A DNA stretch of 64,000 bases, from assembly GCA_945952585.1 (NCBI GenBank), contig CAMFII010000011.1:87992-151991 (forward strand), read 5' to 3'. Of this stretch, positions 46,976 through 62,517 are shown piece after piece. A program made the translations under genes and the position numbers. The number at the start of each line of letters is the position of its first letter. The first letter of the stretch is position 1. Origin of the DNA: an uncultured Rhodobacter sp. GTDB taxonomy: Bacteria > Pseudomonadota > Alphaproteobacteria > Rhodobacterales > Rhodobacteraceae. Below the pieces are notes generated by a model. The model did no database searches and was not told the origin of the DNA. It saw nothing but the letters and a program-made list of their open reading frames with translations.

Positions 46976-47827
46976 TCAGGCAGACCAGGCCTTGGTCACC
47001 TGACGCTGTTCCCCCAGACCCTCGATGCCAAGCGTCATCACCTGTCCCGGCTTCAGATAGACCGGCTCGGGCTTCCGGCCCATGCCGACGCCGGGCGGGG
47101 TGCCGGTCGAGATGATGTCGCCGGGCTGCAGCGACATGAACTGGCTGATGTAATGGACCAGATGGCGCACGCCATAGACCATCGTCCTGGTCGAGCCGTC
47201 CTGGCATTTCTGGCCATCGACCTCGAGCCACATCCGCAGGTTCTGGGGATCGGGCACCTCGTCTGCCGTCACCAGCCACGGACCGGTCGGGCCGAAGGTG
47301 TCCGCCGACTTGCCCTTGACCCATTGCCCGGCGCGCTCGATCTGGAAGGCGCGCTCGGAGATGTCGTTGATGACGCAGTAGCCCGCGACATGGTCAAGCG
47401 CATCAGCCTCGTCGATATAGACGCCGCCCTTGCCGATGACCACGCCCAGCTCGACCTCCCAGTCGGTCTTGACCGAGTTGCGGGGGATGATGACGTCGTC
47501 ATTCGGCCCACAGATGGCGGAGGTGGCCTTCATGAACAGAACCGGCTCCGGCGGTACCGGCAGGTTCGACTCGGCCGCGTGGTCGGCGTAGTTCAGGCCG
47601 ACGCAGATGAACTTGCCCACGCGGCCCACGCAGGGACCGAGCCGCGGTGAGCCGGTGACGACCGGCAGGCTTTCCGGATTGATGGCCCGGATCCGCGCCA
47701 ACCCCTCGGGCGTCAGCGCCTCGCCGGAAATGTCCGGGACATGGGCGGACAGATCGCGCAGATGGCCGCGCGCGTCCAGAATCCCGGGTTTCTCAGCCCC
47801 GACGGGGCCATAGCGAAAGAGTTTCAT
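46976..47827 (-). CDS. FAH-family hydrolase, probable 2,4-diketo-3-deoxy-L-fuconate hydrolase
   Basis: 283-residue member of the fumarylacetoacetate hydrolase family, metal-dependent C-C bond hydrolases of diketo acids. Metal ligands lie in DWEVELGVVIG (E124, E126) and NDISER (D155); the substrate loop GKFICVGLNYADHAAES and TGTPPGVGMG are conserved. Coupled with the SDR and UxaA-family genes upstream, the likely reaction is cleavage of 2,4-diketo-3-deoxy-L-fuconate to pyruvate and L-lactate. Related enzymes are often labelled ureidoglycolate lyase, which the context does not support. Third and last gene of its operon, 8 bases after the SDR gene. Confidence 0.82.
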   Translation of the reverse strand: MKLFRYGPVGAEKPGILDARGHLRDLSAHVPDISGEALTPEGLARIRAINPESLPVVTGSPRLGPCVGRVGKFICVGLNYADHAAESNLPVPPEPVLFMKATSAICGPNDDVIIPRNSVKTDWEVELGVVIGKGGVYIDEADALDHVAGYCVINDISERAFQIERAGQWVKGKSADTFGPTGPWLVTADEVPDPQNLRMWLEVDGQKCQDGSTRTMVYGVRHLVHYISQFMSLQPGDIISTGTPPGVGMGRKPEPVYLKPGQVMTLGIEGLGEQRQVTKAWSA

Positions 47828-47835
47828 GCTTTACC

Positions 47836-48570
47836 TCAGGTATTGGTCCAGCCGCCGTCGATGGCGATGGCCTGGCCGGTGACAAAGGCACTTTCATCGC
47901 TTGCCAGGTAGACCGCAAGGGCGGCGATTTCTTCTGCCCGACCCAGCCGGCCCATGGGCTGGCGGGCGACGAAGGCCTTGTGCGCCGCCTCGTAATCGCC
48001 GGTCGCGGCAAGGCGGCCGCGCAGCGACGGGCTGTCCACGGTGCCGGGGCAGATCGCATTGCAGCGGATACCGCGGGTAACGAAATCCGCGGCAACCGAC
48101 TTCGTCAGCCCGATGGTCGCGGCCTTCGTCATCCCGTAGACGAAACGGTTCGGCGCCGCGATCAGTGAAGACACAGCCGAAGCGATGTTGATGATCGACC
48201 CGCCACCGTTGTCCAGCATCGCCGGCAGGAACGCCTTGGTCACGCGATAGAGCGCCCGGGTGTTGAGGTTGATCGAGAAATCGAAGGCGGCATCGTCGCA
48301 ATCGAGGATCGTGCCGCTGTGAACGAAGCCTGCGCAGTTGAACAGGATGTCGACCGCGCCGATCCGCGCCGCCATCGCGGCAACCGCCGTGGCATCGGTC
48401 ACGTCGAAGGCATGCGTCTCGATCCCATCCTCCTTCAACGGGCGAAGCGCCTCCGCCGAGAGGTCGGTCGCGATCACCCGCGCGCCTTCCGCCGCGAAGG
48501 CCTGGACGGTCGCAAGCCCGATCCCGGCGCCCGACGCGGTGCAAAAAGCGGTTTTTCCCTTCAGTCTCAC
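47836..48570 (-). CDS. SDR oxidoreductase, probable 2-keto-3-deoxy-L-fuconate dehydrogenase
   Basis: 244-residue short-chain dehydrogenase. The cofactor motif TASGAGIG is at residues 11-18, the acidic Asp of ATDLSAE (D36) favours NAD, and the catalytic Tyr145-Lys149 are in YGMTKA. Segments such as DILFNCAGFVHSGTILDCDD, IGLTKSVAADF-x5-IRCN-x-ICPGTVD and the ending IDGGWTNT match the 2-keto-3-deoxy-L-fuconate dehydrogenase / BDH2 branch. It would oxidise the C4 hydroxyl of 2-keto-3-deoxy-L-fuconate to give the diketo acid used by the next enzyme. The gene follows the UxaA-family gene by 10 bases. Confidence 0.83.
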   Translation of the reverse strand: MRLKGKTAFCTASGAGIGLATVQAFAAEGARVIATDLSAEALRPLKEDGIETHAFDVTDATAVAAMAARIGAVDILFNCAGFVHSGTILDCDDAAFDFSINLNTRALYRVTKAFLPAMLDNGGGSIINIASAVSSLIAAPNRFVYGMTKAATIGLTKSVAADFVTRGIRCNAICPGTVDSPSLRGRLAATGDYEAAHKAFVARQPMGRLGRAEEIAALAVYLASDESAFVTGQAIAIDGGWTNT

Positions 48571-48580: not shown

Positions 48581-50119
48581 CTACATCACCGCACCCATGG
48601 CCCAGGGCACGAATTCCGCGCCGCCGAAGCCGAGCTCTTCCGATTTTGTCTTTTCCCCCGAGGCGACCCGAAGGAAAAGTTCAAATATTTCCTGCCCCTT
48701 CGCCTCGATGCTCACGCCATCTGTGATGATGTCGCCGCAATTGATGTCCATGTCTTCGGACATGCGGGCATACATTTCGGAATTGGTGGCAAGCTTGATG
48801 CAGGGCGTGGGCTTGTAGCCCGATACGGATCCGCGCCCGGTGGTAAAGGCGATCAGGTTTGCGCCGGAGGCAATCTGGCCAGTCACCGAGGTCGGATCGT
48901 AACCGGGGCTGTCCATGAAGACGAAGCCGCGCTCGGTGATCGGCTCGGCGAATTTGTAGACCTGCGTCAGCGGCGCGGCGCCCCCCTTGGCGACGGCGCC
49001 AAGGGACTTTTCGAGAATGGTCGTCAACCCGCCTTTCTTGTTGCCAGGCGAGGGGTTGTTGTCCATTTCTCCACCGTTGCGCGAAGTATATTCTTCCCAC
49101 CAGCGGATGCGGTCGACGATCTTCTGGCCGACTTCGGGCGTCACGGCGCGCCGGGTCAGGAGATGTTCGGCGCCATAGATCTCGGAGGTTTCCGACAGGA
49201 TCGTCGTGCCGCCATGGGCAACTAGAAGGTCCGAGGCATAGCCCAAAGCCGGGTTGGCGGTAATCCCGGAATATCCATCAGAACCACCGCATTGCAGGCC
49301 GATCATCAAGTGCTCCAGCCCTGCGGGGCTGCGGACGGCCTTGTTGGCGTCTTCCGCCATCTCGCGCAGGATCGAGAGCCCGCGTTCAATGGTCTTCCGC
49401 GTGCCGCCGGTCTGCTGGATGGTCATGTAACGGAAGGTGCCCGTCTCTTTCATCCGGGCGCGGCCGACGAGATCGGGGATCTGCATGACCTCGCAGCCCA
49501 GACCGACCAGCAGGATCGCCGCGAAGTTCGGATTGCGGGCATAACCGGCGAGGGTGCGGAACAACGTGTCATAGCCCTCGTCCTTGCCCGACATGCCGCA
49601 GCCGGTACCGTGGACGATCGGCACGACGCCATCGACATTCGGATAGTCAGCCAGCCAGCCTTCGCGCTCCACGGCCTCGGCGATGAAGCGGGCGACCGAG
49701 CCCGAGCAGTTCACCGAGGTCAGGATGCCGATGTAGTTGCGGGTGCCCACCGAGCCGTCGGGGCGATGGTAGCCCAGGAAGGTCCGCGTCTCGGTCGGCT
49801 TGGGCAGGGGGCGAACCTCGGTCGAAAAGGCGAAGTCCTGCTCGTGCATCCCCATGCCAAGGTTGTGGCTATGGACATGCTCGCCCGCCGCGATCGGCCG
49901 GGTGGCGACTCCGATGATCTGACCATAGCGCAGGACATTCTCGCCTTCGGCGATCGGCCGAGTGGCGATCTTGTGCCCGCGCGAGATCGGTCCGGCCAGC
50001 GGCGCGCCGACCTCGTCAACCGTCACGCCCGAGCCCAGATCTCGCAGCGCGATCACCACGTTGTCCTCGGGAGAAAGCCGGATTATGTCAGATGAAACAG
50101 GGGACGCGGTGAGGGTCAT
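48581..50119 (-). CDS. UxaA-family sugar-acid dehydratase (probable L-fuconate dehydratase)
   Basis: 512-residue altronate/galactarate dehydratase family enzyme with the N-terminal SAF-like domain (DNVVIALRDLGSGV ... GHKIATRPIAEGENVLRYGQIIG) fused to the large C-terminal domain (GYHRPDGSVGTRNYIGILTSVNCSGSVARF, GTGCGMSGKDEGYDTLFRTLAGYARNPNFAAILLVGLGCE, GQIASGANLIAFTTGRGSVSGYKPTPCIKLATNSEMYARMSEDMDINCGDI). The family uses iron to dehydrate aldonates or aldarates. Here it occupies the dehydratase step of a fucose-type pathway; the Campylobacter jejuni fucose locus also uses UxaA-type proteins. First gene of the operon, divergent from gntR. Confidence 0.85.
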   Translation of the reverse strand: MTLTASPVSSDIIRLSPEDNVVIALRDLGSGVTVDEVGAPLAGPISRGHKIATRPIAEGENVLRYGQIIGVATRPIAAGEHVHSHNLGMGMHEQDFAFSTEVRPLPKPTETRTFLGYHRPDGSVGTRNYIGILTSVNCSGSVARFIAEAVEREGWLADYPNVDGVVPIVHGTGCGMSGKDEGYDTLFRTLAGYARNPNFAAILLVGLGCEVMQIPDLVGRARMKETGTFRYMTIQQTGGTRKTIERGLSILREMAEDANKAVRSPAGLEHLMIGLQCGGSDGYSGITANPALGYASDLLVAHGGTTILSETSEIYGAEHLLTRRAVTPEVGQKIVDRIRWWEEYTSRNGGEMDNNPSPGNKKGGLTTILEKSLGAVAKGGAAPLTQVYKFAEPITERGFVFMDSPGYDPTSVTGQIASGANLIAFTTGRGSVSGYKPTPCIKLATNSEMYARMSEDMDINCGDIITDGVSIEAKGQEIFELFLRVASGEKTKSEELGFGGAEFVPWAMGAVM

Positions 50120-50168: not shown

Positions 50169-50196
50169 TTGACAGAAGGGGCCGAGGGGCTAACAT
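50169..50196 (+). promoter_or_regulatory. Predicted promoter of gntR
   Basis: TTGACA (50169-50174), a 16-base spacer, then TAACAT (50191-50196). Transcription would begin about 50202-50203, at the ATG itself, which predicts a leaderless mRNA. Confidence 0.5.
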
Positions 50197-50208
50197 GTTA
50201 GCATGCTA
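50190..50208. promoter_or_regulatory. GntR operator candidate A (gntR/uxaA divergon)
   Basis: CTAACATGTTAGCATGCTA contains the palindromes CTAACATGTTAG and TAGCATGCTA. It overlaps the -10 and start codon of gntR and lies 71-89 bases upstream of the divergent dehydratase gene. Sites B (52831) and C (60741) share TAGCATG and flanks. Confidence 0.65.
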
Positions 50209-50949
50209 CCCGTGAATGATCCTGAGACGCAAGAGGCAATCCCGCCGGAAGCGTTGCTGACGCCCCTGTCGGCCTTCGAGGGCTCACTGGGCCAGAAAGT
50301 CTATCTGTCGCTCAAGCAGGCCATCATAGCGCTGGTGTTCAGGCCCGGCGAGGCGCTGCGCAAGCCCGAAATCTGTGACCGTCTGGGGGTGTCGCGCTCC
50401 CCGGTCTCCGAGGCGGTGGCGCGGCTGGCGGGCGAGGGATTGGTCGAGGTCGTCCCGCAAGCCGGGACCTTCGTTGCCCGTTTTTCCATGCAGGAAATCC
50501 GCGAGGGCGCCTTCCTGCGCGAGGCGCTGGAGCTTGCCGCGGTCGAGATGGTCGCCAAGACCATCACCGACGAACAGATTGCGCTGTTGAAGCGGAACCT
50601 GCGGGTGCAGGAGGTGCTGGTCGCCGACGGGGATCAGGCCGGTTTCTACGAGATGGACAGCCAGATGCATGAGCTGATCCTGTCCTTCACCGGCTATCGC
50701 CGTCTGGCGCCCATCGCCGAAACCCTGTGGGTTCAGGTCAACCGGGCCCGCCAGCTGGTCCTGCCGCGTCCGGGCCGGTTGCAGGCGACGATCAAGGAAC
50801 ACAAGGCGATCATCGCGGCACTCGAGGCGCGCGAGCCCTATGGCGCCCGCGCGGCGACGCGGACGCACCTGCGCCAGCTCATCAGCCTGCTGGAAGAGAC
50901 GGCGAAGCAGAAGCCCGAGTTGTTCGCCGATCCGGTTCAGAAGCCGTAG
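50203..50949 (+). CDS. GntR-family regulator (FadR/FCD subfamily) of the sugar cluster
   Basis: 248-residue regulator with an N-terminal winged helix (GQKVYLSLKQAIIALVFRPGEALRKPEICDRLGVSRSPVSEAVARLAGEGLVEVVPQAGTFVARFS) and a C-terminal all-helical FCD ligand domain with metal-site Asp/His residues (EMDSQMHELILSFTGYRR, EHKAIIAALEAREPYGARAATRTHL). Regulators of this branch repress sugar-acid catabolism and are released by a pathway intermediate. It is divergent from the dehydratase operon and its 3' end overlaps the convergent lactonase gene by 13 bases. The ATG shows no ribosome binding site at the usual distance; a GTG at 50212 is the alternative. Confidence 0.85.
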   Translation: MLPVNDPETQEAIPPEALLTPLSAFEGSLGQKVYLSLKQAIIALVFRPGEALRKPEICDRLGVSRSPVSEAVARLAGEGLVEVVPQAGTFVARFSMQEIREGAFLREALELAAVEMVAKTITDEQIALLKRNLRVQEVLVADGDQAGFYEMDSQMHELILSFTGYRRLAPIAETLWVQVNRARQLVLPRPGRLQATIKEHKAIIAALEAREPYGARAATRTHLRQLISLLEETAKQKPELFADPVQKP

Positions 50950-51776
50950 AACTCGGCTGCGGTTCCGCCAAAGATCCGGTCCCGCGCCGACTGGGGCAGA
51001 TGCGCCGTCAGCTCCAGCGCCGCCTGGCGCCACCCGGCATAGCTGGAGGCCAGCAGGCAGACCGGCCAGTCTGATCCCCACATCACCCGCTCCGGTCCGA
51101 AAACCGAAATGATGTGATCCACATAGGGCTTGAGGTCCTGCACCGTCCAGTCGGGCCGCGCCTCGGTGACCAGTGCCGAGAACTTGCAGAAGGCCGCGGT
51201 TTCCCCGGCAAGGCGGGCCATCCCATCGGCCCAGTCGGCAAAGGCCGCGGGGGAGGTGTCGCGGATCTGCGGTTTCATGCAGTGGTCGATCACCACGCGC
51301 ATCTCCGGGTAACGCCGGAGTAGGGCCAGGAAATGCCCGAGATGGCGCGGAAAGCCGAGCGCGTCGAAGGTCAGGCCGTTCTCGATCACGGCACGATAGC
51401 CCCACTGAACTTCGTCCCGGTGCATCCAGGCGTCGTCGGGCAAGTCCTGGATCATCGGGCGCACGCCCCTGAACTTCGGATGCCCGGCCAGTCGCCGCAG
51501 CACGGCCGCGTCGCCGGGGCGGTCGAAATCCACCCAGCCGACCACGCCCGCGACCGTGTCGCCTGCATCGGCGAGACCCAGCATGTACTCGGTCTCGTCC
51601 ACCGTCGGGGCCGCCTGCACCAGGACCGTCCGCTCCACCCCGGCCTGGGCCAGCAGCGGCGCAAGGTCGGCGGGGCCCCAGACCCGGTTGAGCGTGGCGT
51701 TGTCCTTGGGCATCCAGCCGTAATCGCCGCGGCCGGGGTTCCAGAAATGCTGATGGGCGTCGATCTGCATGGTCAT
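50937..51776 (-). CDS. L-fuconolactonase-like amidohydrolase
   Basis: 279-residue TIM-barrel amidohydrolase of the L-fuconolactonase/COG3618 group. The N-terminal metal motif is IDAHQHFWNPGRGDYGWM (H8, H10), further ligands lie in VVIDHCMKP, and the C-terminal WGSDWPVCLL carries the catalytic Asp. It opens the sugar lactone made by the aldose dehydrogenase encoded 6 bases upstream, giving the aldonate for the dehydratase. The fucose assignment rests on family plus context. Confidence 0.85.
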   Translation of the reverse strand: MTMQIDAHQHFWNPGRGDYGWMPKDNATLNRVWGPADLAPLLAQAGVERTVLVQAAPTVDETEYMLGLADAGDTVAGVVGWVDFDRPGDAAVLRRLAGHPKFRGVRPMIQDLPDDAWMHRDEVQWGYRAVIENGLTFDALGFPRHLGHFLALLRRYPEMRVVIDHCMKPQIRDTSPAAFADWADGMARLAGETAAFCKFSALVTEARPDWTVQDLKPYVDHIISVFGPERVMWGSDWPVCLLASSYAGWRQAALELTAHLPQSARDRIFGGTAAEFYGF

Positions 51777-51782
51777 GCCCGC

Positions 51783-52811
51783 TCAGACCGGCGCATCGGG
51801 ATGGAGCAGCCCCGCCGCGCGGAAGTCGGCCCACAGCGCCTCGGGAAGGGTGGCCCGGGCAGCGGCGGCATTGCTTTCGACCTCGGCCACCGCCTGCCCG
51901 CCAGGAATGACCGAGACGACAGCGGGATGACGCAGAGGGAACTGGAAGGCCGCGTCGATCATCCGCACGTTGTGGCGGGTGCAGATCTCCTGGATCCGGG
52001 TGACCCGCTCCAGCACCCAGTCGGGGGCGGGGGCGTATTTGTAGAAGGCGCCGGGACGTGGTCCGGTGGCAAGGACGCCGGAATTGTAGGGCGCGCCGAT
52101 GACCACGCCGATGCCGCGCGACTGGGCCAGCGGCAGGAAGCTGTCGAGCGAGGTCTGGTCGAGAAGCGTGTAGGGGCCGGCGAGCAGGAAGATATCGAAA
52201 TCGCCGCGCTCGGCCAGCGTCTGGCACGGTTCCCATTCGTTCACGCCCGCGCCGAAGGCCTTGATCACGCCTTCGTCCCGCAGACGTATCAGCGCGCGAT
52301 AGCCGCCAGACAGGAATTCCTCGATGCGGGCATCCATCTTGTCCTTGCCGCCCTGCGAGTAGATGTCGAGGTCGTGGGCATAAAGGATGTCGACCCGGTC
52401 GAGGCCGAGCCGCTCCAGGCTGATCTCAAAGCTCTTCAGCACGCCGTCATAGCTGTAGTCGAAGACCTCCTTGCGGGCGGGCACGTCAAAGAACTTGCCG
52501 ATGGCGTCGGGTTTTTCGCCGGGGGCGCAGGTGCGCAGCAGGCGTCCGACCTTGGTCGACAGCACATATTCGTCGCGCGGCTTGGTCCGCAGAAAGCGGT
52601 TGAGGCGCGTCTCGGACAGGCCCATGCCGTAAAGCGGCGCCGTGTCGAAATAGCGGATGCCTGCATCCCAGGCGCGGGCGAGGATCTCGTCCGCGGCCTC
52701 GTCGGAGATGGCGCGGTACAGGTTTCCGATGGGGGCGGTACCGAATCCGAGCGTGGTGAAGCTCAGCCCGCCATTCCCGATCCGGTCCCAGTGTCGTGTC
52801 GTCAAAGCCAT
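51783..52811 (-). CDS. Aldo/keto reductase, probable L-fucose (D-threo-aldose) 1-dehydrogenase
   Basis: 342-residue aldo/keto reductase of the L-fucose/L-galactose dehydrogenase branch (GFGTAPIGNLYRAISDEAA, TAPLYGMGLSETRLNRFL). The catalytic tetrad is in place: D56, Y61, K87 (STKVGR) and H146 (YAHDLD). It would oxidise the anomeric carbon of L-fucose or a similar aldose to the lactone with NAD(P). It is the first gene of a two-gene operon with the lactonase; GGGAGG precedes the ATG and operator candidate B lies 20 bases further upstream. Confidence 0.86.
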   Translation of the reverse strand: MALTTRHWDRIGNGGLSFTTLGFGTAPIGNLYRAISDEAADEILARAWDAGIRYFDTAPLYGMGLSETRLNRFLRTKPRDEYVLSTKVGRLLRTCAPGEKPDAIGKFFDVPARKEVFDYSYDGVLKSFEISLERLGLDRVDILYAHDLDIYSQGGKDKMDARIEEFLSGGYRALIRLRDEGVIKAFGAGVNEWEPCQTLAERGDFDIFLLAGPYTLLDQTSLDSFLPLAQSRGIGVVIGAPYNSGVLATGPRPGAFYKYAPAPDWVLERVTRIQEICTRHNVRMIDAAFQFPLRHPAVVSVIPGGQAVAEVESNAAAARATLPEALWADFRAAGLLHPDAPV

Positions 52812-52830
52812 GAAGTCCTCCCTGATCGAC

Positions 52831-52846
52831 TGACATGCTAGTATGA
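52831..52846. promoter_or_regulatory. GntR operator candidate B (AKR/sgcQ divergon)
   Basis: TGACATGCTAGTATGA reads TCATACTAGCATGTCA on the other strand and aligns with sites A and C through TAGCATG. It lies between the divergent aldo/keto reductase and SgcQ-type genes. Confidence 0.6.
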
Positions 52847-52917
52847 TTTCGCTTGGTGTGCACCCGCTTCGCGTCTAGTCTCGACAGGAAGAGGGCTGCG
52901 GCTCCGGGGGAGGAAAA

Positions 52918-53721
52918 GTGAACAATTTCAGACGTGTCTTCGGATCCGGGAAGCCGGTCATCGCAATGGTGCATCTTGGCGCGTTGCCGGGTGCGCCGCT
53001 GTTCGATTCGGAAGCGGGGCTTGAGGGGCTGGTGGCCGGGGCGCGGGCCGACCTGCTTGCGCTGCAGGCGGCGGGCTTCGATGCGGTGATGTTCGGCAAC
53101 GAGAACGACCGCCCCTACGAGTTCAAGGTCGACACGGCTTCGACCGCGACCATGGCCTATGTGATCGGGCGGCTGCGGGGCGAGATCACTGTGCCTTTCG
53201 GGGTGAATGTGCTCTGGGACCCGATGAGCTCGGTGGCGCTCGCCGCCGCCACCGGGGCGAGTTTCGTGCGCGAGATCTTCACCGGCACCTATGCCAGCGA
53301 CATGGGGCCGTGGACGCCCGATGCCGGCGCGGCACTCCGCTATCGCACAAGGGTCAGGCGGGGGGACCTTGCCATGCTCTATAACGTCTCCGCAGAGTTT
53401 GCGCACAGCCTTGACCGCCGCCCGTTGCCCGACCGGGCACGAAGCGCGGTCTTTTCCTCGATCCCAGACGCAGTGCTGGTTTCCGGCCAAATCACGGGAG
53501 AGGCTGCGGAATTGTCGGATCTAGAAGGGGTGAAGCGCGTCCTGCCGGACACGCCGGTGCTCGCCAATACCGGGGTGAAGCACGCCACGGTCGCGGACGT
53601 GCTGCGGGTGGCCGATGGCTGCATCGTCGGTTCGGCGCTCAAGGTCGACGGCCATACCTGGAATGCGGTCGATCCGGAACGGGCCAAGGACTTCATGGCG
53701 CGGGTGAGGGCGGTCAGGTGA
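52918..53721 (+). CDS. BtpA/SgcQ family TIM-barrel protein
   Basis: 267-residue protein of the BtpA/SgcQ family, a ribulose-phosphate-binding-like barrel (KPVIAMVHLGALPGAPLF at the start, GFDAVMFGNENDRPY, VPFGVNVLWDPMSSVALAAATGASFVREIFTGTYASDMG, TPVLANTGVKHATVADVLRVADGCIVGSALKVDG at the end). SgcQ lies in the cryptic sgc sugar operon of E. coli; the enzyme activity of the family is not established. The start is GTG at 52918 with GGGGGAGG upstream. It overlaps the M42 gene by 4 bases. Confidence 0.83.
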   Translation: MNNFRRVFGSGKPVIAMVHLGALPGAPLFDSEAGLEGLVAGARADLLALQAAGFDAVMFGNENDRPYEFKVDTASTATMAYVIGRLRGEITVPFGVNVLWDPMSSVALAAATGASFVREIFTGTYASDMGPWTPDAGAALRYRTRVRRGDLAMLYNVSAEFAHSLDRRPLPDRARSAVFSSIPDAVLVSGQITGEAAELSDLEGVKRVLPDTPVLANTGVKHATVADVLRVADGCIVGSALKVDGHTWNAVDPERAKDFMARVRAVR

Positions 53722-54812
53722 AAGAGCGGCTGCGGCGAGACCTGACGGAGTTGATGCTGATCCCCGGCCTTTCGGGGCATGAGGAGCGGGTGGCGGCGCG
53801 CATCCGTGAGGGGCTGGCAGAGGCGGGGATCACCTCGCGCGTCGACCGGCTTGGCAACGTGATCGCGACGCTGCCGGGTGACCCTGCCGCACCCTCGGTG
53901 ATGATCTTTACCCATATGGATCAACTGGGTTTTTTCGTCCGCAAGGTCGAGCCGGACGGCCTGATCCGGGTCGAGCGGATGGGCGGCGTGGCGGAACGCG
54001 CGATGGCGGCGCAGCCGGTGCTGCTCTGCGTCGGGCCGGGACGTGACGTTCCGGGCATCATCATGAACAAGGCCCATCACGCCACGACGCCCGAGGAGAA
54101 ATACAGGGTCCTGACCGCGCCCGAGATCCGCATCGACACCGGCCACGGCAGCAAGGCGGCGGTCGAAGCGGCAGGCATCAGCATCGGAACGCCCGTCGTC
54201 TATCGTCCGCAGGTCCTGCCGCTGGCGGGCGAGCGCATCGCCGGCACCTCGGTCGATGACCGGGCAGGCTGCGCGGTGCTGCTCGAGGTGGCGCGCGGCC
54301 TGGCAGGGCGGGCAGGCGGGCCAACGGTGCATCTCGTCTTTTCGGTGCAGGAGGAATTCAACCTGCGCGGCGCCGTGGTCGCGGCCCAGGTGCTGAAGCC
54401 GGATATCGCGCTGCAGATCGACCTGATGCTGGCCACCGACACGCCCGACATGGCCGACCGGGGGGAGATGGTATTGGGCGGCGGACCCGGGATCAGCCTT
54501 TATTCCTTCCATGGGCGTGGCACCTTGAACGGGGTGATCCCGCACCCGGCGCTGGTGAAGCTGTTCGAAGCGGCGGCGGTCAGGGAAAGGCTGCCGCTCC
54601 AGCGCTCGGCGCAGGTCGGGGTCCTGACAGACCTGTCCTATGTCCAGCTGGTTGGTGAAGGCGTCGCGAGCCTCGATCTGGGTTTCCCGATGCGGCATTC
54701 GCATTCGGCAGTGGAATGCTGCGATCTTGAAGATCTTGCCGGCCTGACACGGTTGATCCTGGCTGGCGTGGCAAGGATCAGGCCGGATTTTCGTCTTGAG
54801 ATAGATGGTTAG
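53718..54812 (+). CDS. M42-family metallohydrolase (SgcX-like)
   Basis: 364-residue M42/FrvX-type metal-dependent hydrolase. The dinuclear metal ligands are visible: H66 in THMDQLGF, D180 or D181 in SVDDRAGC, the Glu pair E212-E213 in VQEEFNLRG, D235 in QIDLMLAT and H329 in MRHSHSAVE. M42 enzymes are usually aminopeptidases, but SgcX and FrvX are found in sugar operons, where a peptide substrate makes little sense. Coupled to the SgcQ-type gene (GTGA overlap) and 3 bases before the kinase, so the three form one unit. Confidence 0.83.
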   Translation: MKERLRRDLTELMLIPGLSGHEERVAARIREGLAEAGITSRVDRLGNVIATLPGDPAAPSVMIFTHMDQLGFFVRKVEPDGLIRVERMGGVAERAMAAQPVLLCVGPGRDVPGIIMNKAHHATTPEEKYRVLTAPEIRIDTGHGSKAAVEAAGISIGTPVVYRPQVLPLAGERIAGTSVDDRAGCAVLLEVARGLAGRAGGPTVHLVFSVQEEFNLRGAVVAAQVLKPDIALQIDLMLATDTPDMADRGEMVLGGGPGISLYSFHGRGTLNGVIPHPALVKLFEAAAVRERLPLQRSAQVGVLTDLSYVQLVGEGVASLDLGFPMRHSHSAVECCDLEDLAGLTRLILAGVARIRPDFRLEIDG

Positions 54813-54815
54813 GAG

Positions 54816-56300
54816 ATGACCTTCACCCTTGGCGTCGATATCGGAACCTTCGAGTCGAAGGGAGTGATCGTCGATGAGGCCGGCCGCATCATCGCCTCAG
54901 CGAGCTGCCCGCATGAAATGATCGTTCCGCGTCCAGGCTGGGCCGAGCACCGCGCCGAAGAGGATTGGTGGGGAGATTTCATCAGGATTGTCAGGCAGTT
55001 GCTTCTGGAGTCGAATGTAAAGTCTGAGGAGATCAAGGCCGTCGCAACCTCGGCCATAGGTCCCTGCATGTTGCCGGTCGATCGGGCAGGCAAGCCGCTG
55101 ACGAATGGCGTGCTGTACGGCGTGGACACGCGGGCGAGTGTCGAGATCGCGGAGATCACCGAACGTCTGGGCGCGGACGAGATCCTCCGGCGCGGCGGCA
55201 ATGCCCTGACATCGCAATCGGTCGGACCGAAGATCCTGTGGCTGAGAAGGAACTTTCCAGAAGTTTTGGAAAATACTTTCTGGATAATGACTTCCACGAC
55301 GTATCTGACCTATCGCCTGACCGGCGAGATCGTCATGGATCACTACACGGCCGCGAATTATTCGCCCCTCTACGACATCGCGACGCAGGACTGGCGGGAC
55401 GATCTCGACTGGATCTGCCCGCGTTCAAAGCTGCCGCGACTGCTTTGGTCGGCCGAGATCGCGGGCCGGATAAGCGAGGTTGCCGCCAAGGAGACCGGCC
55501 TTGCAGTCGGAACGCCGGTGACGTGTGGGACGATCGACGCGGCGGCAGAAGCGGTGAGCGTCGGTGTGCGCCAACCGGGCGATCTGATGCTGATGTATGG
55601 CTCGACGGTTTTTGTCATCCTGATTGCCGAGCGGCGTCTGACCGACGCCCGCCTCTGGCACGCGCCCTGGCTTTTTCCGGGGCAGTTTTCGGCCATGGCC
55701 GGGCTTGCAACCAGCGGGACGCTGACACACTGGTTCCGGGATGAGCTGGCGCGCGATCTTGTTCAACAGACTGCCTTCGCGGTACTCGCGAGTGAAGCCG
55801 CCGCATCGCCTCCGGGTGCCAAGGGATTGATCGTTCTTCCATATTTCTCGGGAGAGCGGACGCCGATCCACGATCCCGTGGCCAAGGGCGTCATCTTCGG
55901 ACTGAACCTGACGCATAACCGCGGCGACCTCTATCGGGCAACGCTCGAAGGCATCGCCTGTGCCACCCGCGCCATCACCGACACCTATGCCGAGGCGGGG
56001 CAACCGGTCGCCCGTGTGCGGGCGGTAGGCGGAGGCACGAAGAACGCGATCTGGCTGCAGGCGACCTCGGACCTGACCGGGCTGGATCAGACCCTGTGCG
56101 AGGTGACGAGCGGCGCGGCCTATGGCGACGCCTTCCTTGCGCGATTGGCCATCGGTGAAGCGAGGGCTGCGGATATCGACCGCTGGAACGCGGCAGAGCG
56201 CCAGATCACGGCTTCAAAGCACCCGGCCTACGAGAAACTCTATCCGCTGTTCCGGCGCCTTTATGCGCAGACCCGCGACCTGGCGGCGGAGCTTGGTTGA
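54816..56300 (+). CDS. FGGY-family carbohydrate kinase
   Basis: 494-residue sugar kinase of the FGGY (xylulose/fuculose/glycerol kinase) family. The N-terminal phosphate-binding motif is LGVDIGTFESKGVIVD, the conserved middle stretch reads YGVDTRA and GTPVTCGTIDAAAEAVSVG, and the C-terminal FGGY motif region is RVRAVGGGTKNAIWLQATSDLTG with GAAYGDAFLA. It phosphorylates a ketose or polyol that is not identified. As the pathway in the neighbouring operons needs no kinase, this enzyme points to a second, phosphorylative branch. Convergent with FucU copy 1. Confidence 0.87.
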   Translation: MTFTLGVDIGTFESKGVIVDEAGRIIASASCPHEMIVPRPGWAEHRAEEDWWGDFIRIVRQLLLESNVKSEEIKAVATSAIGPCMLPVDRAGKPLTNGVLYGVDTRASVEIAEITERLGADEILRRGGNALTSQSVGPKILWLRRNFPEVLENTFWIMTSTTYLTYRLTGEIVMDHYTAANYSPLYDIATQDWRDDLDWICPRSKLPRLLWSAEIAGRISEVAAKETGLAVGTPVTCGTIDAAAEAVSVGVRQPGDLMLMYGSTVFVILIAERRLTDARLWHAPWLFPGQFSAMAGLATSGTLTHWFRDELARDLVQQTAFAVLASEAAASPPGAKGLIVLPYFSGERTPIHDPVAKGVIFGLNLTHNRGDLYRATLEGIACATRAITDTYAEAGQPVARVRAVGGGTKNAIWLQATSDLTGLDQTLCEVTSGAAYGDAFLARLAIGEARAADIDRWNAAERQITASKHPAYEKLYPLFRRLYAQTRDLAAELG

Positions 56301-56333
56301 GGCGGCACGTGAGGGATGGCGGACAACCTTCGG

Positions 56334-56774
56334 TCAGATCACGCCTTTGCGCAGGATGAAACAGCCATAAGGGCCGGGATCCGAAGTGCGGATGATGCAG
56401 AAGGCGCGCTTCGCCGCGTCGTAGAAGGAAAAGCGTTCGAGCGCGGCCATCGTGACCGGTCGGCCTTGCGCCTTGTCGATTACGCCCTGCATCCGCGCGA
56501 AAACCGGCATTTGTGCTGCCGGGTCGTCAACCACCTCCATTCGCCAGACCGGTGCCGGCACGAAGGTATCAAGCGGGAACAGCGTCAGAATCGCCTCGGT
56601 CGCCTGGGGAATGTCGCAGCCCGCCATGTCGATGAGGCGCCCGTAGGTGGTTTCCTTGGCGATGGTCACCGCCGGATGGTTTATGTCGCAGATCACCAGA
56701 TCATCGCCATGCCCCATCTGCATCAATGCATGCAGCAGATCGGCGGTCAGGCGGCGGTCGATGGTCTTCAGCAC
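56334..56774 (-). CDS. RbsD/FucU family mutarotase (copy 1)
   Basis: 146-residue sugar mutarotase/pyranase of the FucU type: VLKTIDRRL start, MGHGDDLVICDINHP with the catalytic His and Asp region, ALERFSFYDAAKRAFCIIRT, and the ending YGCFILRKGVI. E. coli FucU has YGN where this has YGC. It speeds interconversion of anomers of L-fucose or ribose before the dehydrogenase or kinase. The start is a GTG at 56774 directly after a run of ten G. Last gene of the importer operon. Confidence 0.88.
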   Translation of the reverse strand: MLKTIDRRLTADLLHALMQMGHGDDLVICDINHPAVTIAKETTYGRLIDMAGCDIPQATEAILTLFPLDTFVPAPVWRMEVVDDPAAQMPVFARMQGVIDKAQGRPVTMAALERFSFYDAAKRAFCIIRTSDPGPYGCFILRKGVI

Positions 56775-56776
56775 GG

Positions 56777-56786
56777 CCCCCCCCCC
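56777..56786 (-). repeat. G10 homopolymer at the FucU copy 1 ribosome binding site
   Basis: Ten consecutive C on the plus strand read as G10 on the coding strand, ending two bases before the GTG start, where the Shine-Dalgarno should be. Length change by slippage would change SD-to-start spacing. Confidence 0.7.
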
Positions 56787-56836
56787 GATTTTTCTACGAA
56801 AAATCATGCAGGATACTGAATTTTCGTAGAAAATTC
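56787..56836. repeat. Paired hairpins between permease and FucU copy 1
   Basis: GATTTTTC-TAC-GAAAAATC (56787-56805) and GAATTTTC-GTA-GAAAATTC (56818-56836) are perfect 8-bp stems with 3-base loops in the 68-base gap. The first is identical to the copy at 31035, the second uses the arms of the copies at 8.5 kb. Confidence 0.7.
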
Positions 56837-56842
56837 GACCGG

Positions 56843-57760
56843 TCATTTCACCGCGCCCGCCGCCATGCCCTTGATGATGTAGCGTTCCAGCAGCACGCCG
56901 ATGATGATGAGCGGGATGATCGCGGCAAAGCTGAGCGCGGCCATAGACCACCAGCTGATGCCCTGGCTGCCGGTCTGGCTCGCTACCATCACTGGCAGGG
57001 TGTTGGCATGAGTCGAGGTCAGGAGCGCGGCGAAGAAATACTCGTTCCAGGTCAGGACCAGCGACAGGATGAAGGCCGCGACCATGCCGGGCAGGGCGAT
57101 CGGCAGGACGATGGTCAGGAAGGCGCCCCAGATCGACAGGCCATCGACCAGCGCCGCCTCTTCCAGTTCGTGCGGGATGCCGGCGAACTGGTCGCGCATG
57201 ATCCAGATGACGATGGGAAGGACCGAGAGGGTGTAAAGCAGTATCAGCCCGATCCGCGTGTCGAGCAGCGCCAGTTCCTTGTAGAGGACAAGGAAGGGCA
57301 GGGCGAGCACGACCGGCGGCAGGATCAGCTGGCTGAGGAAGAAGAAGCTGATGTCGGGGTTCCGCATCCACAGGAACTTGTAGGAAAACCGCGACAAGCC
57401 ATAGGCGGCAAGGCTGCCAAGCGCCACCGCGGCCGCCGAAGAGGTCAGCGAAATCACCGTCGAGTTCATGAATCGCACCATGAACTCCTGCCGGACCGTT
57501 GACTCGCTGCCGATCGTGTCGGGTGAAAGGCCGAGCGATTTCCAGCCCAGCCATTTCGGGGTGAAGTCGACCCAGGGGATCAGCGAGCCCTTCATCACAT
57601 CCGGCGCCATCTTGAAGCTCGTCGTGATGGTCCAGAAGATCGGGAACAGGCAGATCGCCGCCCAGATGAGCAGCATCCCGTAGATCGCCAGGCGCGAGGC
57701 ATACCAGCCAAGCCGGGCAGGGCGGTCATGCGGATGGTCGTGGAAGATCTGATCGGTCAT
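56843..57760 (-). CDS. Carbohydrate ABC transporter permease (MalG type)
   Basis: 305-residue inner-membrane permease with six main hydrophobic segments and the EAA loop IPHELEEAALVDGLSIWGAFLTIVLPIALPG, which contacts the ATPase. It forms the CUT1-type importer with the next upstream permease, the Tat-exported binding protein and the UgpC-type ATPase. The ATG is one base after the stop of the MalF-type gene. Confidence 0.92.
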   Translation of the reverse strand: MTDQIFHDHPHDRPARLGWYASRLAIYGMLLIWAAICLFPIFWTITTSFKMAPDVMKGSLIPWVDFTPKWLGWKSLGLSPDTIGSESTVRQEFMVRFMNSTVISLTSSAAAVALGSLAAYGLSRFSYKFLWMRNPDISFFFLSQLILPPVVLALPFLVLYKELALLDTRIGLILLYTLSVLPIVIWIMRDQFAGIPHELEEAALVDGLSIWGAFLTIVLPIALPGMVAAFILSLVLTWNEYFFAALLTSTHANTLPVMVASQTGSQGISWWSMAALSFAAIIPLIIIGVLLERYIIKGMAAGAVK

Positions 57761-57761
57761 G

Positions 57762-58868
57762 TCAGTATTTCGGCCTCATCCAGCGGTCGGCGACCTTCAT
57801 CAGCACGGTCATGAAGATGATGATGAGCACGAGATAGACCATGGCCAGCAGCGTTCCGTAGCCCACGTTCGAGCGGTCGCGGTATTCGCGGTAGATGAAG
57901 CTCGTCACGCTGTCCGTCGCGCCGCCGGGCCCGCCCGAGGTCAGGTTGATTATGATGTCGGCGAGCTTCAGCTTGAAGATGATGCGGATCAGGATCGCGG
58001 TGATCGACACCGGCAGCATCAGCGGGAAGGTCACCTCCCAGAAGCCGCGCCAGGGGCTTGCGCCGTCCACGCGAGCGGCTTCCTGCACGTCCTTGGGGAT
58101 CGCCTGCAGGCCGGCGAGGATCATGATCATCATGAAGGGGATGTAGGTCCAGGCATCGAGGACCATGATGGTGAACCGCGCCATTTCCGGCGAAGAGAAG
58201 AAGGTGGGATTGTCCCAGCCGAGGAACCGCGCCAGGCGGGCGATCGGACCGAAGCGCAGCTCGAGCATGGATTTGCCGACCATCCAGCTGACCGCGACCG
58301 GCGACAGCATCAGCGGCAGCAGGAAGGCGACGCGGAAGAACTTCCGGCCGCGGATCTGCGCGTTCAGAAGCAGCGCGAGACCGAAGGCGATGGCATATTC
58401 GACGATGATCGCCAGCAGGTAGCGGATCATGTTGCCGAGCGCGTTCCAGTAGAACGGGTCGGCCCACATCTGGCGGACATTGTCGAGCCCGTTGAACTGG
58501 CGCCCGTCGGGCGAGGAGAGGTTCCAGTTCGAGAAGGCGATGATGAGGCCGAAGATCAGCGGGAAGACCACCAGCGAGATCACGAAAAGCGCTGCCGGCA
58601 GGACGAACAACACCCGCTTGCCCTGCTCTCCCCGGACCAGAACCTGCGACCAGCAGAGGCAGACCGAGAACAGGATGTAGGCGTAAAGCGTCGGCCGCCA
58701 GTTCGGCAAACCGAGGGAAATCGTTCCGCTCTGGTCAAGCGTCTGGACGAGCGCAGTGCCCGCCAGGAGGGCGAGGGAGGCCCAGACGATCGCCTTGCCG
58801 AAGGCGCGGCGGCCGGGAGAAATGTCGTCGTTCGTGACGACATGAAGCAGGTCACCGGTTTCGGCCAA
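57762..58868 (-). CDS. Sugar ABC transporter permease (MalF type)
   Basis: 368-residue inner-membrane permease with an extended N-terminus and about seven hydrophobic segments. The EAA loop reads IPKDVQEAARVDGASPWRGFWEVTFPLMLP. The N-terminal TGDLLHVVTNDDIS tail is cytoplasmic. It partners with the MalG-type permease in a CUT1 importer. It follows the binding-protein gene by 62 bases. Confidence 0.92.
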   Translation of the reverse strand: MAETGDLLHVVTNDDISPGRRAFGKAIVWASLALLAGTALVQTLDQSGTISLGLPNWRPTLYAYILFSVCLCWSQVLVRGEQGKRVLFVLPAALFVISLVVFPLIFGLIIAFSNWNLSSPDGRQFNGLDNVRQMWADPFYWNALGNMIRYLLAIIVEYAIAFGLALLLNAQIRGRKFFRVAFLLPLMLSPVAVSWMVGKSMLELRFGPIARLARFLGWDNPTFFSSPEMARFTIMVLDAWTYIPFMMIMILAGLQAIPKDVQEAARVDGASPWRGFWEVTFPLMLPVSITAILIRIIFKLKLADIIINLTSGGPGGATDSVTSFIYREYRDRSNVGYGTLLAMVYLVLIIIFMTVLMKVADRWMRPKY

Positions 58869-58930: not shown

Positions 58931-60577
58931 TCACATGCCGAGCGAGGCCTTGTAGAGCTTGATCTGGTTCTCGCGGCCGATCTGGTCGGTGATCTTCTCC
59001 CAGGCGGCGGCGATGGCATCGGCGGTTTCCTGCGCCGACTTGTACTGGCCGGCATATCCCTTGGCCAGTTCGTCCTCGGCGACCGAGTAGTACTGGAAGA
59101 TACCGGGGATGCGCGGCTCGATCGCGGCGTTCGGATGGTTGTAGCTGTCGCGGTTCGAGCCGAGATAGTCCTCTATATAGGCCCGGTCGTAGCCTGCCGC
59201 TTCCCATTCGTCGAAGTTGAAGTGCGAGTTGCGGTAGGGCTGGAAGCCCGAGGGATAGGCCGCCATCCAGAGCGAGATGTCCTTGCCGCCCAGATGCGCC
59301 GCTGCCGACCAGGCCGCCTTGCGCTTCTTCTCGTCACCCGAAACGTTCTTGGTCACGTAGATGCCCCAGCCGAGATAGGCGAGGTTCGGGGCGAAGTTCT
59401 CCTTCTCTTCCCAGGCGCCGGCCTTGTGGTTGTAGACCTTCTTGGCACCGGGGTTGATGTCGAAGCTGACGACATCGCCTACGACCGACGTGTCGGAGGT
59501 GCGGGCCATCGAGCCCACGTCGCCCCACCATGTCAGCGCGCCGCCGGTTCCGGCGAGGAACTGCTGGAAGGCGGTCGTGCCAGGGTCGGCGTTGATCTGG
59601 TCCGGCGGGTAGGCTCCGGCAGCGATCAGGTCCATCACGTCCTGGATCGCCTGCACCCAGCCGGGGTTGTTCACGCGCGGCTTCATCGTGTCCGGGTCGA
59701 ACAGGAAGGCCCGGTCGTCGGGATGCTTCACATAGGCGGTGGCGCGGTCTTCCAGGAAGTAGAAGCCGAAGCCGCCCCAGCCCTTCAGCGGGTCAAGGAA
59801 GCCGTAGGCGGGCTGTCCCGTCAGCGGGTCAGTCTTGCCCTTGAGCGCGATGGACATCGCGTTGACCTCGTCCCAGTGCCGCGGCATCTCGGCCAGGCCC
59901 GAGATCGAGCCCTCGCCGACGTAGTCCTTGCGGTAGGACAGCGTGTGGCAGTCGCCGTCGATGTTGATCCGGTAGGTCTTGCCGTCCCAGGTGCCGACCG
60001 GCGGCTTGAGATAGGCCACGAGGTCGTCCGCCTCGATCTGGGTCGCGACCCAGTCCGGCATCGGGTCGAGCAGGCCCTGGCCGGCGGTGTCGCCTTCGAA
60101 GGGGGCGCCCATCTCGATGATGTCGAAGTCCACGGTGCCGGTGGCGATCGACTGCTGGAGCCGCGGATTGTAGTCGGCCTGGGCCAGGTCGATCCAGTTG
60201 ATCTTGGCGCCGGTATAGGTCTCCCAGGGCTTCAGGAAGCCGCGGAACAGGAAGTTGTGCAGGTTCTGGTTGTTGAGCCCCATGAAGGTCAGTTCGACGC
60301 CGACGAACTCGCCCTCGGCCACGTTGGCCTTGGTCGGGCCAAGGCACATCTCGCCGACCTTTTGCCAGTCGGCATCGGTAGGCGATCCGGCGCCGACGCC
60401 CGGAATCTTCAGGATTTCCGCCCGCAGGTTGTCCTGGGCGAGGGCAGGGCGCGCGCCTGCGCCAAGGCCAAGCCCGCCAAGTGCCGCAAGGCCACCGAGC
60501 CCGGCAGCCCCCTTCAGGACGCCCCGGCGGGTCATCGCGGACCGCGCCATGAGGGCGTTGTAGATCTCTACTTTCAT
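58931..60577 (-). CDS. Tat-exported sugar-binding protein of the ABC importer
   Basis: 548-residue extracellular solute-binding protein, long for family 1. The start MKVEIYNALMARSAMTRRG at 60577 (GGGAGG upstream) exposes a twin-arginine signal, TRRGVLKGAAGLGGLAALGGLGLGAGARPALA, so the protein is probably exported folded by Tat. The mature part binds the sugar delivered to the permeases (GAKINWIDLAQADYNPRLQQ, NIDGDCHTLSYRKDYVG). First gene of the minus-strand importer operon, divergent from the ATPase gene. Confidence 0.88.
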   Translation of the reverse strand: MKVEIYNALMARSAMTRRGVLKGAAGLGGLAALGGLGLGAGARPALAQDNLRAEILKIPGVGAGSPTDADWQKVGEMCLGPTKANVAEGEFVGVELTFMGLNNQNLHNFLFRGFLKPWETYTGAKINWIDLAQADYNPRLQQSIATGTVDFDIIEMGAPFEGDTAGQGLLDPMPDWVATQIEADDLVAYLKPPVGTWDGKTYRINIDGDCHTLSYRKDYVGEGSISGLAEMPRHWDEVNAMSIALKGKTDPLTGQPAYGFLDPLKGWGGFGFYFLEDRATAYVKHPDDRAFLFDPDTMKPRVNNPGWVQAIQDVMDLIAAGAYPPDQINADPGTTAFQQFLAGTGGALTWWGDVGSMARTSDTSVVGDVVSFDINPGAKKVYNHKAGAWEEKENFAPNLAYLGWGIYVTKNVSGDEKKRKAAWSAAAHLGGKDISLWMAAYPSGFQPYRNSHFNFDEWEAAGYDRAYIEDYLGSNRDSYNHPNAAIEPRIPGIFQYYSVAEDELAKGYAGQYKSAQETADAIAAAWEKITDQIGRENQIKLYKASLGM

Positions 60578-60740: not shown

Positions 60741-60759
60741 CTAACATTTTAGCATGTCA
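60741..60759. promoter_or_regulatory. GntR operator candidate C (importer divergon)
   Basis: CTAACATTTTAGCATGTCA differs from site A at three of 19 positions and shares TAGCATGTCA with site B. It lies between the divergent binding-protein and ATPase genes, 62 bases before the ATPase start. Confidence 0.65.
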
Positions 60760-60820: not shown

Positions 60821-61879
60821 ATGGCCGAAGTCACGATCCGCGACCTGCGCAAGTCCTATGGCGGGCTGGAGGTGCTGCATGGCGTCAATATCGCCATTGC
60901 CGACGGGCAGTTCGTAGTCCTCGTCGGCCCGTCGGGCTGCGGCAAGTCCACGCTGCTGCGGATGCTGGCCGGGCTGGAAAGCATCACCTCGGGCACGATC
61001 CAGATCGGCGAACGTGTGGTGAACAACCTGGCGCCCTCGGATCGCGACATCGCGATGGTGTTCCAGAACTACGCGCTCTACCCCCACAAGACCGTGGCGG
61101 CGAACATGGGGTTCCCGCTGAAGATGCGCGGCATGGCGAAGGCTGAAATCGCTGAGCGGGTCAGCAGGGCGGCCGATATCCTGGGCCTGAAGCCCTATCT
61201 CGACCGCTATCCCCGCGCCCTGTCGGGCGGCCAGCGGCAACGGGTGGCGATGGGGCGGGCGATCGTGCGCGATCCGCAGGTCTTCCTCTTCGACGAGCCG
61301 CTTTCGAACCTCGACGCCAAGTTGCGGGTCCAGATGCGGACGGAAATCCGCGAGCTACACCAAAGGCTTAAGACGACCACGGTCTATGTTACCCACGACC
61401 AGATCGAAGCGATGACCATGGCCGACCGCATCGTGGTGATGCGCGACGGCCATATCGCCCAGCAGGGCGCGCCTTTGGAGCTGTACGACCGGCCAGCCAA
61501 CACCTTTGTCGCCGGGTTCATCGGCTCGCCGTCCATGAACCTCTTGCCCGGGGTGGTGGCGTCCGGGGGAGGGGCGGTCGATATCGAAGGTGCGACGATC
61601 GCCGTTCCGGCGCGGTCGGGCATAGAGCCTGGGCGCAAGGTGATCGTTGGAATTCGCCCAGAGCATCTTGAGATTGCGCCGTCCGGCCTCACGGCGGATG
61701 TCGTCGTGATCGAGCCGACCGGCTCGGAAACCCATGTGGTCCTTCGCCTGGGCTCGCGCGAGCTGACGGCGGTCTTCCGCGAGCGCCATGCTTTCCGGCC
61801 GGGCGACAAGGTTACGCTTGCGCCCGATCCCGCTCTCATCCACCTCTTTGACGAGGCGACCGGTGAGAGGATCGGATGA
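60821..61879 (+). CDS. Sugar ABC transporter ATP-binding protein (UgpC/MsmK type)
   Basis: 352-residue CUT1 ATPase with Walker A GPSGCGKST (near residue 38), signature ALSGGQRQRVAMGRA, Walker B VFLFDEPLSNLDA, and the C-terminal OB-like regulatory domain (VGIRPEHLEIAP). It energises the importer encoded on the other strand. First gene of a plus-strand operon that goes on with SGNH hydrolase, FucU copy 2 and a PfkB kinase; the stop overlaps the next gene by 4 bases. Confidence 0.93.
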   Translation: MAEVTIRDLRKSYGGLEVLHGVNIAIADGQFVVLVGPSGCGKSTLLRMLAGLESITSGTIQIGERVVNNLAPSDRDIAMVFQNYALYPHKTVAANMGFPLKMRGMAKAEIAERVSRAADILGLKPYLDRYPRALSGGQRQRVAMGRAIVRDPQVFLFDEPLSNLDAKLRVQMRTEIRELHQRLKTTTVYVTHDQIEAMTMADRIVVMRDGHIAQQGAPLELYDRPANTFVAGFIGSPSMNLLPGVVASGGGAVDIEGATIAVPARSGIEPGRKVIVGIRPEHLEIAPSGLTADVVVIEPTGSETHVVLRLGSRELTAVFRERHAFRPGDKVTLAPDPALIHLFDEATGERIG

Positions 61880-62517
61880 CACGCACGCTGCTTTGCTATG
61901 GCGACAGCAATACCCACGGCACCATGCCGATGGCCGGGATCGAAGAGATGGGCCGCTTCGGCGCCGGCATCCGCTGGCCGCACCTTCTTGCCGCCAAGCT
62001 CCCGGGCTGGGTCGTGATCGAGGAAGGCCTGCCAGGGCGAACGACCGTTCACAATGATCCGATCGAAGGCCCGCATCGCAATGGCCTGTCGGTGCTGCCC
62101 GCAATCCTGGAAAGCCATCGGCCGATTGACGTGGTGCTGCTGATGCTGGGCACCAACGACCTGAAATGCCGCTTTTCGGTGAATGCCTCGGACATCGGGC
62201 ATTCGCTGGAACGTCTCGTGCGGGCCGTGCAGATTTCGCAATGCGGACCGGGGGCAGGGGCACCGCAGGTGCTGCTGGTGGCCCCGCCGCCGATTCTCGA
62301 GACCGGCTGCCTAGCGGGGATGTTCGAAGGCGGGGCGGCAAAGTCGCTCGGCCTGTCTGACCGCATTGCCGAGGCCGCCGCGCGGATGGGCGTGGCCTTC
62401 CTCGATGCCGCCGATGTCGTCGCTGTGTCCGAAATCGACGGCATCCATTACGACGAACCGGCGCAGGAAGCACTGGCCACCGCCTTTGCCGAGGCGATCA
62501 CCCGGCATTTCGGCTGA
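61876..62517 (+). CDS. SGNH/GDSL-type hydrolase
   Basis: 213-residue SGNH hydrolase. Block I is LLCYGDSNTHGT (Ser nucleophile), block III is LMLGTNDLK (Asn), and block V is SEIDGIHYDEPA (Asp-x2-His). No signal peptide is present, so it acts in the cytoplasm. Position inside a sugar uptake operon suggests removal of an acyl group from an imported sugar or glycoside. It overlaps the ATPase gene by 4 bases. Confidence 0.85.
   Translation: MTRTLLCYGDSNTHGTMPMAGIEEMGRFGAGIRWPHLLAAKLPGWVVIEEGLPGRTTVHNDPIEGPHRNGLSVLPAILESHRPIDVVLLMLGTNDLKCRFSVNASDIGHSLERLVRAVQISQCGPGAGAPQVLLVAPPPILETGCLAGMFEGGAAKSLGLSDRIAEAAARMGVAFLDAADVVAVSEIDGIHYDEPAQEALATAFAEAITRHFG

Follow-up and report, generated by a model that had tools for sequence, protein, structure and literature searches.

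The window examined here, a stretch of 64,000 nucleotides from an uncultured Rhodobacter sp. (contig CAMFII010000011.1, positions 87,992 to 151,991), holds at 52918-56300 three consecutive genes for an SgcQ/BtpA-family barrel, an M42 metallohydrolase and an FGGY carbohydrate kinase. An earlier note on this DNA had described the three genes as coupled, which is confirmed by the open reading frames (ORFs), by Pfam searches and by their spacing: the sgcQ and M42 genes overlap by 4 bp, with stop and start sharing GTGA at 53718-53721, and a 3 bp gap separates the M42 stop from the FGGY ATG. The link that was then drawn to the sgc pair of Escherichia coli has also been borne out, as the M42 protein is of the SgcX kind and both sgcX and sgcQ lie in the operon of strain MG1655, whose order sgcX-sgcB-sgcC-sgcQ-sgcA-sgcE-sgcR was confirmed and whose genes carry putative annotations throughout.

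The three proteins

SgcQ matches the BtpA family over its whole length (PF03437, E=5.7e-72, 242.7 bits for a cut-off of 30 in the Pfam search) and exceeds the cut-off of the NCBIfam profile TIGR00259 (245.8 against 153.4 bits), but it is not the photosystem I BtpA equivalog (NF045918, 154.5 bits, cut-off 400). The AlphaFold2 (AF2) model of the barrel (pLDDT 84, pTM 0.87) has as its nearest folds the phosphate-binding barrels of the TrpA/PRAI/PcrB kind. In this line, the family profile matches TrpA, PRAI, PcrB/GGGPS and similar enzymes in the region of the phosphate-binding strands; a search of solved structures with the single SgcQ sequence gave no credible match, and with the profile only phosphate-barrel fragments. 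SgcQ thus resembles TrpA, PRAI, PcrB and ribulose-phosphate epimerase in its phosphate-binding (beta/alpha)8 fold with a local motif at strands 7-8, but its identity to them is 11-19%, with no catalytic residues seen in common. The invariant polar residues H19, R118 and D184, together with the phosphate-type motif, are kept from Haloferax to Rhizobium. A class I (Schiff-base) aldolase is disfavoured for SgcQ, because the invariant lysine at the barrel position typical of such an enzyme is lacking.

The M42 protein (PF05343, E=2.7e-69, 233.9 bits in the Pfam search) keeps all the metal ligands and the catalytic glutamate (H66, D68, D180/D181, E212/E213, D235 and H329), as seen in an alignment to solved M42 proteins and E. 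coli homologues. Its identity is 38% to E. coli SgcX, compared with 29-30% to FrvX and YpdE, and a HGRGTL insertion was found, among the M42 proteins compared, only in SgcX and in the type of the window. By these sequence comparisons, it belongs with SgcX and not with FrvX or YpdE. The M42 family cuts amide bonds. The characterised members discussed in PMC3511314 are all aminopeptidases, even those misnamed cellulases. A search of viral contigs for relatives of the M42 protein retrieved none. A relative from Deinococcus peraridilitoris (L190:7965-9074), 38% identical to the M42 protein of the window, lies beside a peptide ATP-binding cassette (ABC) transporter, an NlpC/P60 protein, a dipeptide epimerase and a MurR/RpiR regulator, a setting that suggests the use of murein peptides.

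Kinases of the FGGY family act on ketoses, polyols and aldonates. The one encoded here is recognised by both of its domains (PF00370, FGGY_N, E=3e-44; PF02782, FGGY_C, E=1.9e-30), and its substrate-side motif is unlike that of a neighbouring FGGY subtype. Identification as a xylulokinase was rejected, with 295.8 bits against the XylB model TIGR01312 for a cut-off of 380.25. Literature searches for BtpA together with FGGY, and for SgcX with sugar chemistry, found nothing.

Conservation and natural absences

Among 85,462 species genomes scanned, 440 relatives were found; the best 80 loci, nearly all of them alphaproteobacterial, were kept, and 52 of these are full-length. The conserved neighbourhood expected by the earlier note was found, as the M42 gene is retained in 78 of the 80 SgcQ loci and the FGGY gene in 74. 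Moreover, in a sample of 296 genomes of the order, this type of SgcQ occurs in 29 and this type of M42 in 31, including all 29, whereas the solute-binding protein (SBP) of the importer is present in 34, among them 28 of the 29 with SgcQ. Such a co-occurrence is more than linkage, because in several genomes the SBP or transporter is encoded on a separate contig or at a distance of tens to hundreds of kilobases.

The three genes had been proposed to form a second branch beside a sugar dehydrogenase pathway, and their distribution supports that view: 18 of the 52 full loci are devoid of aldo/keto reductase (AKR), lactonase and UxaA and still hold SgcQ, M42 and FGGY, with importer permeases in 15 of the 18. 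Because those loci keep it, the trio is no add-on to the fucose-type branch, and it has been gained and lost independently of it. On the other hand, FGGY accompanies the dehydrogenase in every one of the 34 full loci that contain the latter, and UxaA is found in just 16 of the 52.

As for the trio being a module, the pairing of SgcQ with SgcX stood (29 of 29 genomes), but its indivisibility with FGGY did not. Four genomes (G060, G175, G181 and G234) keep AKR, FGGY, the importer and the second FucU mutarotase (FucU2) and miss both SgcQ and M42, which led to the rejection of FGGY as an inseparable partner; in the three of them that belong to the same genus, FGGY lies ~80 bp from AKR and is just 53-57% identical to the kinase of the window. 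In view of these natural absences and of those in genomes G152 and G087, the tight unit, as judged from gene content, is SgcQ with SgcX, FGGY being common to the dehydrogenase branch too. An SgcQ remnant at L152:9529-9753 corresponds to the first 75 residues, with 60% identity, and precedes intact M42 and FGGY genes.

Recurrent partners that are not in the window are an AP-endonuclease-2-like isomerase (41 of the 80 loci), a creatininase-family hydrolase (26), a second PfkB kinase (25) and a SIS protein (21). The creatininase-family C-N hydrolase recurs near FGGY (for instance at L062:13405-14151), sometimes with the SIS protein alongside. No creatininase gene was found in the window, and a candidate in a Tabrizicola locus appears to be a shadow ORF lying opposite FucU.

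The GntR operator and the surrounding genes

The claim that the three genes share an operator with the sugar dehydrogenase is supported by a palindrome, CTAACATGTTAG, which, with up to two mismatches allowed, has three sites in the window where 0.22 would be expected, all of them in divergent intergenic regions (Table 1). Across the 80 loci, sites are ~58-fold denser outside than inside matched genes, although absolute counts of this sort are favoured, because the motif was derived from the same regions in which it was then counted. A stronger test compares loci by whether they carry a GntR gene: the operator directly precedes sgcQ in 21 of the 25 long loci where this gene is present, but in none of the 28 that lack it, with the reservation that related loci are not independent. 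The GntR protein probably controls all three promoters, and the predicted operators tie the sgcQ-M42-FGGY genes, the dehydrogenase and the importer parts into one regulon. A scan of sigma-70 promoters gave no signal above chance.

Table 1. Genes and predicted operators of the regulon in the window
Feature	Position	Strand	Basis or occurrence
FAH-family 2,4-diketo-3-deoxy sugar acid hydrolase	46976..47827	-	PF01557
Short-chain dehydrogenase/reductase (SDR), presumed 2-keto-3-deoxy sugar acid dehydrogenase	47836..48570	-	PF13561
UxaA/GarD-type sugar acid dehydratase	48581..50119	-	PF20629/PF04295/SAF
GntR-type operator, perfect CTAACATGTTAG, directly before gntR	50190..50201	+	
GntR (FadR-like) regulator	50203..50949	+	translation; operator co-occurrence
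Amidohydrolase 2, presumed sugar lactonase	50937..51776	-	PF04909
AKR, presumed aldose dehydrogenase	51783..52811	-	PF00248; in 47/80 loci
GntR-type operator CTGACATGCTAG, between dehydrogenase and sgcQ	52830..52841	+	
SgcQ/BtpA-family TIM barrel, 267 aa, GTG start	52918..53721	+	PF03437, TIGR00259, AF2 model
SgcX-type M42 metallohydrolase, 364 aa, GTG start overlapping SgcQ stop	53718..54812	+	PF05343; E. coli SgcX comparison
FGGY carbohydrate kinase, 494 aa, not xylulokinase equivalog	54816..56300	+	PF00370/PF02782
RbsD/FucU mutarotase 1	56334..56795	-	PF05025
ABC transporter permease 2	56843..57760	-	in 60/80 loci
ABC transporter permease 1	57762..58868	-	in 59/80 loci
ABC SBP, ~549 aa, twin-arginine-like leader	58931..60577	-	translation
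GntR-type operator CTAACATTTTAG, between SBP and ATPase genes	60741..60752	+	
ABC transporter ATPase	60821..61879	+	in 40/80 loci
SGNH-like hydrolase	61876..62517	+	weak NCBIfam match, 24.4 bits; merely 6/80 loci
RbsD/FucU mutarotase 2 (FucU2), start approximate	62567..62986	+	PF05025; close to solved Atu2016, 2ob5, E=7.5e-55
Ribokinase-type PfkB kinase	62990..63910	+	TIGR02152, 302.3 bits vs cut-off 299.65

The presumed dehydrogenase and lactonase, the dehydratase, the SDR and the FAH-type hydrolase of the regulon correspond in type to those of a non-phosphorylative pathway of the L-fucose/L-rhamnose type, which itself has no kinase, SgcQ or M42; the lactonase and the hydrolase remain below equivalog cut-offs (202.3 bits for the fucono-1,5-lactonase model, cut-off 400; 442.9 bits for NF053535, cut-off 500). 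A search with the SBP for the ligand of the transporter yielded just a weak maltose-binding-like match. The importer is flanked by the two diverged FucU/RbsD mutarotases, of which many loci have a single copy. To the left of the cluster, at 42907-46871, lie a large secreted GH43-like glycosidase (-) and a DUF1254-like protein (+), both named from their translations alone.

Related systems and possible function

Like the window, the sgcXBCQAER operon of E. coli and Salmonella combines SgcQ (47% identical) and an SgcX-type M42 (38%) with sugar import, but it relies on import and phosphorylation by a phosphotransferase system (PTS), an SgcE epimerase and a DeoR-type regulator, whereas the window has an ABC importer, FGGY and PfkB kinases, mutarotases and GntR; neither PTS IIA, IIB or IIC nor SgcE is among the genes assigned at 46976-63910. 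In rhizobial SgcQ-FGGY(-HAD)-SDR-DeoR-ABC clusters, SgcQ also adjoins FGGY and a carbohydrate ABC importer, but M42 is absent, the FGGY is of another subtype, and a HAD phosphatase and an SDR are present. A BtpA-family barrel with a kinase and metallohydrolases is likewise found in the BtpA2-PfkB-RbsABC-PTE-GATase clusters of Rhizobiaceae, Pantoea and Rhodobacterales, which differ from the window in their ~30-35% SgcQ identity, a ribose-type transporter, a PfkB kinase, and M20 or TenA in place of M42. This cluster is very regular (L116, L119, L120, L122, L125, L179-L182, L184, L186 and L187), with the barrel, PfkB, RbsABC, a PTE-family protein, GATase1_like (PF07090), and TenA or M20, and it looks like a catabolic pathway for a nitrogenous ribose-like compound. 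An SgcQ of Sinorhizobium fredii (L114:9001-9822), 68% identical to that of E. coli, stands beside a PIG-L deacetylase, a Gfo/Idh/MocA protein, a sugar isomerase and an ABC transporter, not a PTS.

Distant SgcQ contexts are mostly found with a kinase or a PTS: sgc itself (PTS), FGGY with DeoR, SDR, HAD and ABC, the PfkB-RbsABC-PTE-GATase clusters and Haloferax (PfkB). By tblastn, a kinase was seen in 24 of 29 further genome loci with SgcQ, two of the five exceptions being short contigs. Given these neighbours and the phosphate-barrel signature, the substrate of SgcQ is probably a phosphorylated sugar that the adjoining kinase or PTS supplies.

We give an even chance to the reading in which SgcQ and the SgcX-type M42 are a paired, optional sub-module of one GntR-controlled regulon for uptake and catabolism, whose other parts would be the ABC importer, a FucU mutarotase, the ribokinase-like and FGGY kinases, the aldose dehydrogenase and the lactonase. 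The importer would take up an aldose-type sugar and related conjugates; the free aldose would be oxidised by the dehydrogenase/lactonase branch or phosphorylated, whereas in a conjugate an amide-type bond would be hydrolysed by M42, phosphate would be supplied by the FGGY or PfkB kinase, and the phosphosugar would be isomerised or cleaved by SgcQ to enter central metabolism. Tentative elements of this scheme are which bond M42 cuts, in what order the steps run, and what the substrate is. Since M42 keeps its position next to SgcQ in two import systems that differ in other respects, its role might be to cut a sugar conjugate at an amide-type bond, and not to turn over peptides in general. As candidate activities, aldolase or isomerase for SgcQ and sugar-amide hydrolase for M42 are compatible with the evidence, and the creatininase-family C-N hydrolases of the 26 loci count in favour of the scheme. 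A more ambitious version, which we hold as possible but rather doubtful, is that the pair carries out a previously undescribed two-step breakdown of a phosphorylated sugar conjugate (an amide or N-glycoside), with SgcQ founding a new phosphosugar lyase or isomerase activity across PTS-fed (E. coli), ABC/FGGY-fed and ABC/PfkB-fed systems.

Several observations weigh against the paired sub-module. E. coli sgc mutants had no growth defect on 190 Biolog carbon sources (PMC13343008), and the structural neighbours of SgcQ are so many and so distant (TMq about 0.6) that no reaction can be named. The Fisher p values for the co-occurrence of SgcQ with M42 and with the SBP (4e-38 and 3e-32) are inflated by shared ancestry. 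Moreover, FGGY persists without SgcQ and M42 in the four genomes described, a few loci have SgcQ and M42 without FGGY, G152 holds intact M42 and FGGY behind a 75-residue SgcQ remnant, G087 has M42-FGGY at the site with no SgcQ there, and other types of SgcQ occur without any M42.

Among the alternatives, a nucleoside-like route, in which an N-riboside or N-glycoside is imported and phosphorylated by the kinase, the phosphosugar is released by SgcQ, the nitrogenous part is opened by M42 (by M20 or a different amidase elsewhere), and free ribose is salvaged by FucU and ribokinase, would agree with the distant clusters that pair PfkB with RbsABC and PTE-like, glutaminase-like, M20 or TenA hydrolases, with the PfkB partner of SgcQ in Haloferax, and with the FucU and the above-cut-off ribokinase of the window. 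It would also suit the induction of E. coli sgc on nitrogen-containing, slow-growth substrates reported in a 2026 compendium (PMC13343008). We consider it unlikely, as the SgcQ of the window is just ~30-37% identical to those subfamilies, its transporter is not of the ribose type, its kinase belongs to FGGY with the substrates given above, and the cluster with SgcQ, FGGY, SDR, HAD and DeoR (type II) resembles polyol or ketose catabolism. A small probability is likewise assigned to an aldonate route, where dehydrogenase and lactonase would yield an aldonate, a gluconokinase-like FGGY would phosphorylate it, SgcQ and accessory isomerases would act downstream, and UxaA, SDR and FAH, where present, would offer an alternative fate. 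The presence of FGGY in every full locus with the dehydrogenase, the scarcity of UxaA, and the persistence of FGGY with AKR and lactonase where SgcQ and M42 are missing speak for such a route, but it leaves M42 without a role and is at odds with the 18 full loci that have the trio and no AKR, lactonase or UxaA.

The two remaining alternatives concern single proteins. That M42 is an ordinary aminopeptidase, carried in the operon as a passenger unrelated to growth on sugar, would fit the activity of all the characterised members discussed in PMC3511314 and the peptide-related neighbours of the Deinococcus protein; it becomes improbable in view of the adjoining SgcQ in 78 of 80 loci, the joint absence of both genes, the SgcX-specific insertion and the same pairing with a PTS in enteric bacteria. 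For SgcQ, a non-enzymatic role, chaperoning or assembling photosystem I (as BtpA) or the PTS (as E. coli SgcQ), goes back to the name BtpA, which derives from photosystem I biogenesis, and to the 'PTS chaperone-like features' proposed for the E. coli protein (PMC13343008). We regard it as very improbable, because SgcQ is not the BtpA equivalog and keeps its polar residues and phosphate-type motif over large distances, and the PTS version in particular is weakened by loci where SgcQ accompanies ABC transporters and a PTS is absent.

The sgc operon of E. coli has long resisted assignment, and in the 2026 study it was induced, yet gave no growth phenotype. The regulon of the window offers what E. 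coli lacks: its setting is conserved and free of a PTS, it has a transporter and a predicted regulator whose operator is defined, and its close relatives provide natural pairs of presence and absence, so the old question of sgc function becomes directly testable. It argues that SgcQ is an enzyme acting on the product of a kinase, not a helper of a PTS or a photosystem, and that SgcQ and SgcX act as a pair. Altogether, the three genes are real, widely conserved and part of one regulon, and they offer the best access so far to an enzyme pair that has long been cryptic; since two of the three are relatives of the enzymes of the never-explained E. coli operon, this bacterium is a practical place to learn what SgcQ and SgcX do.

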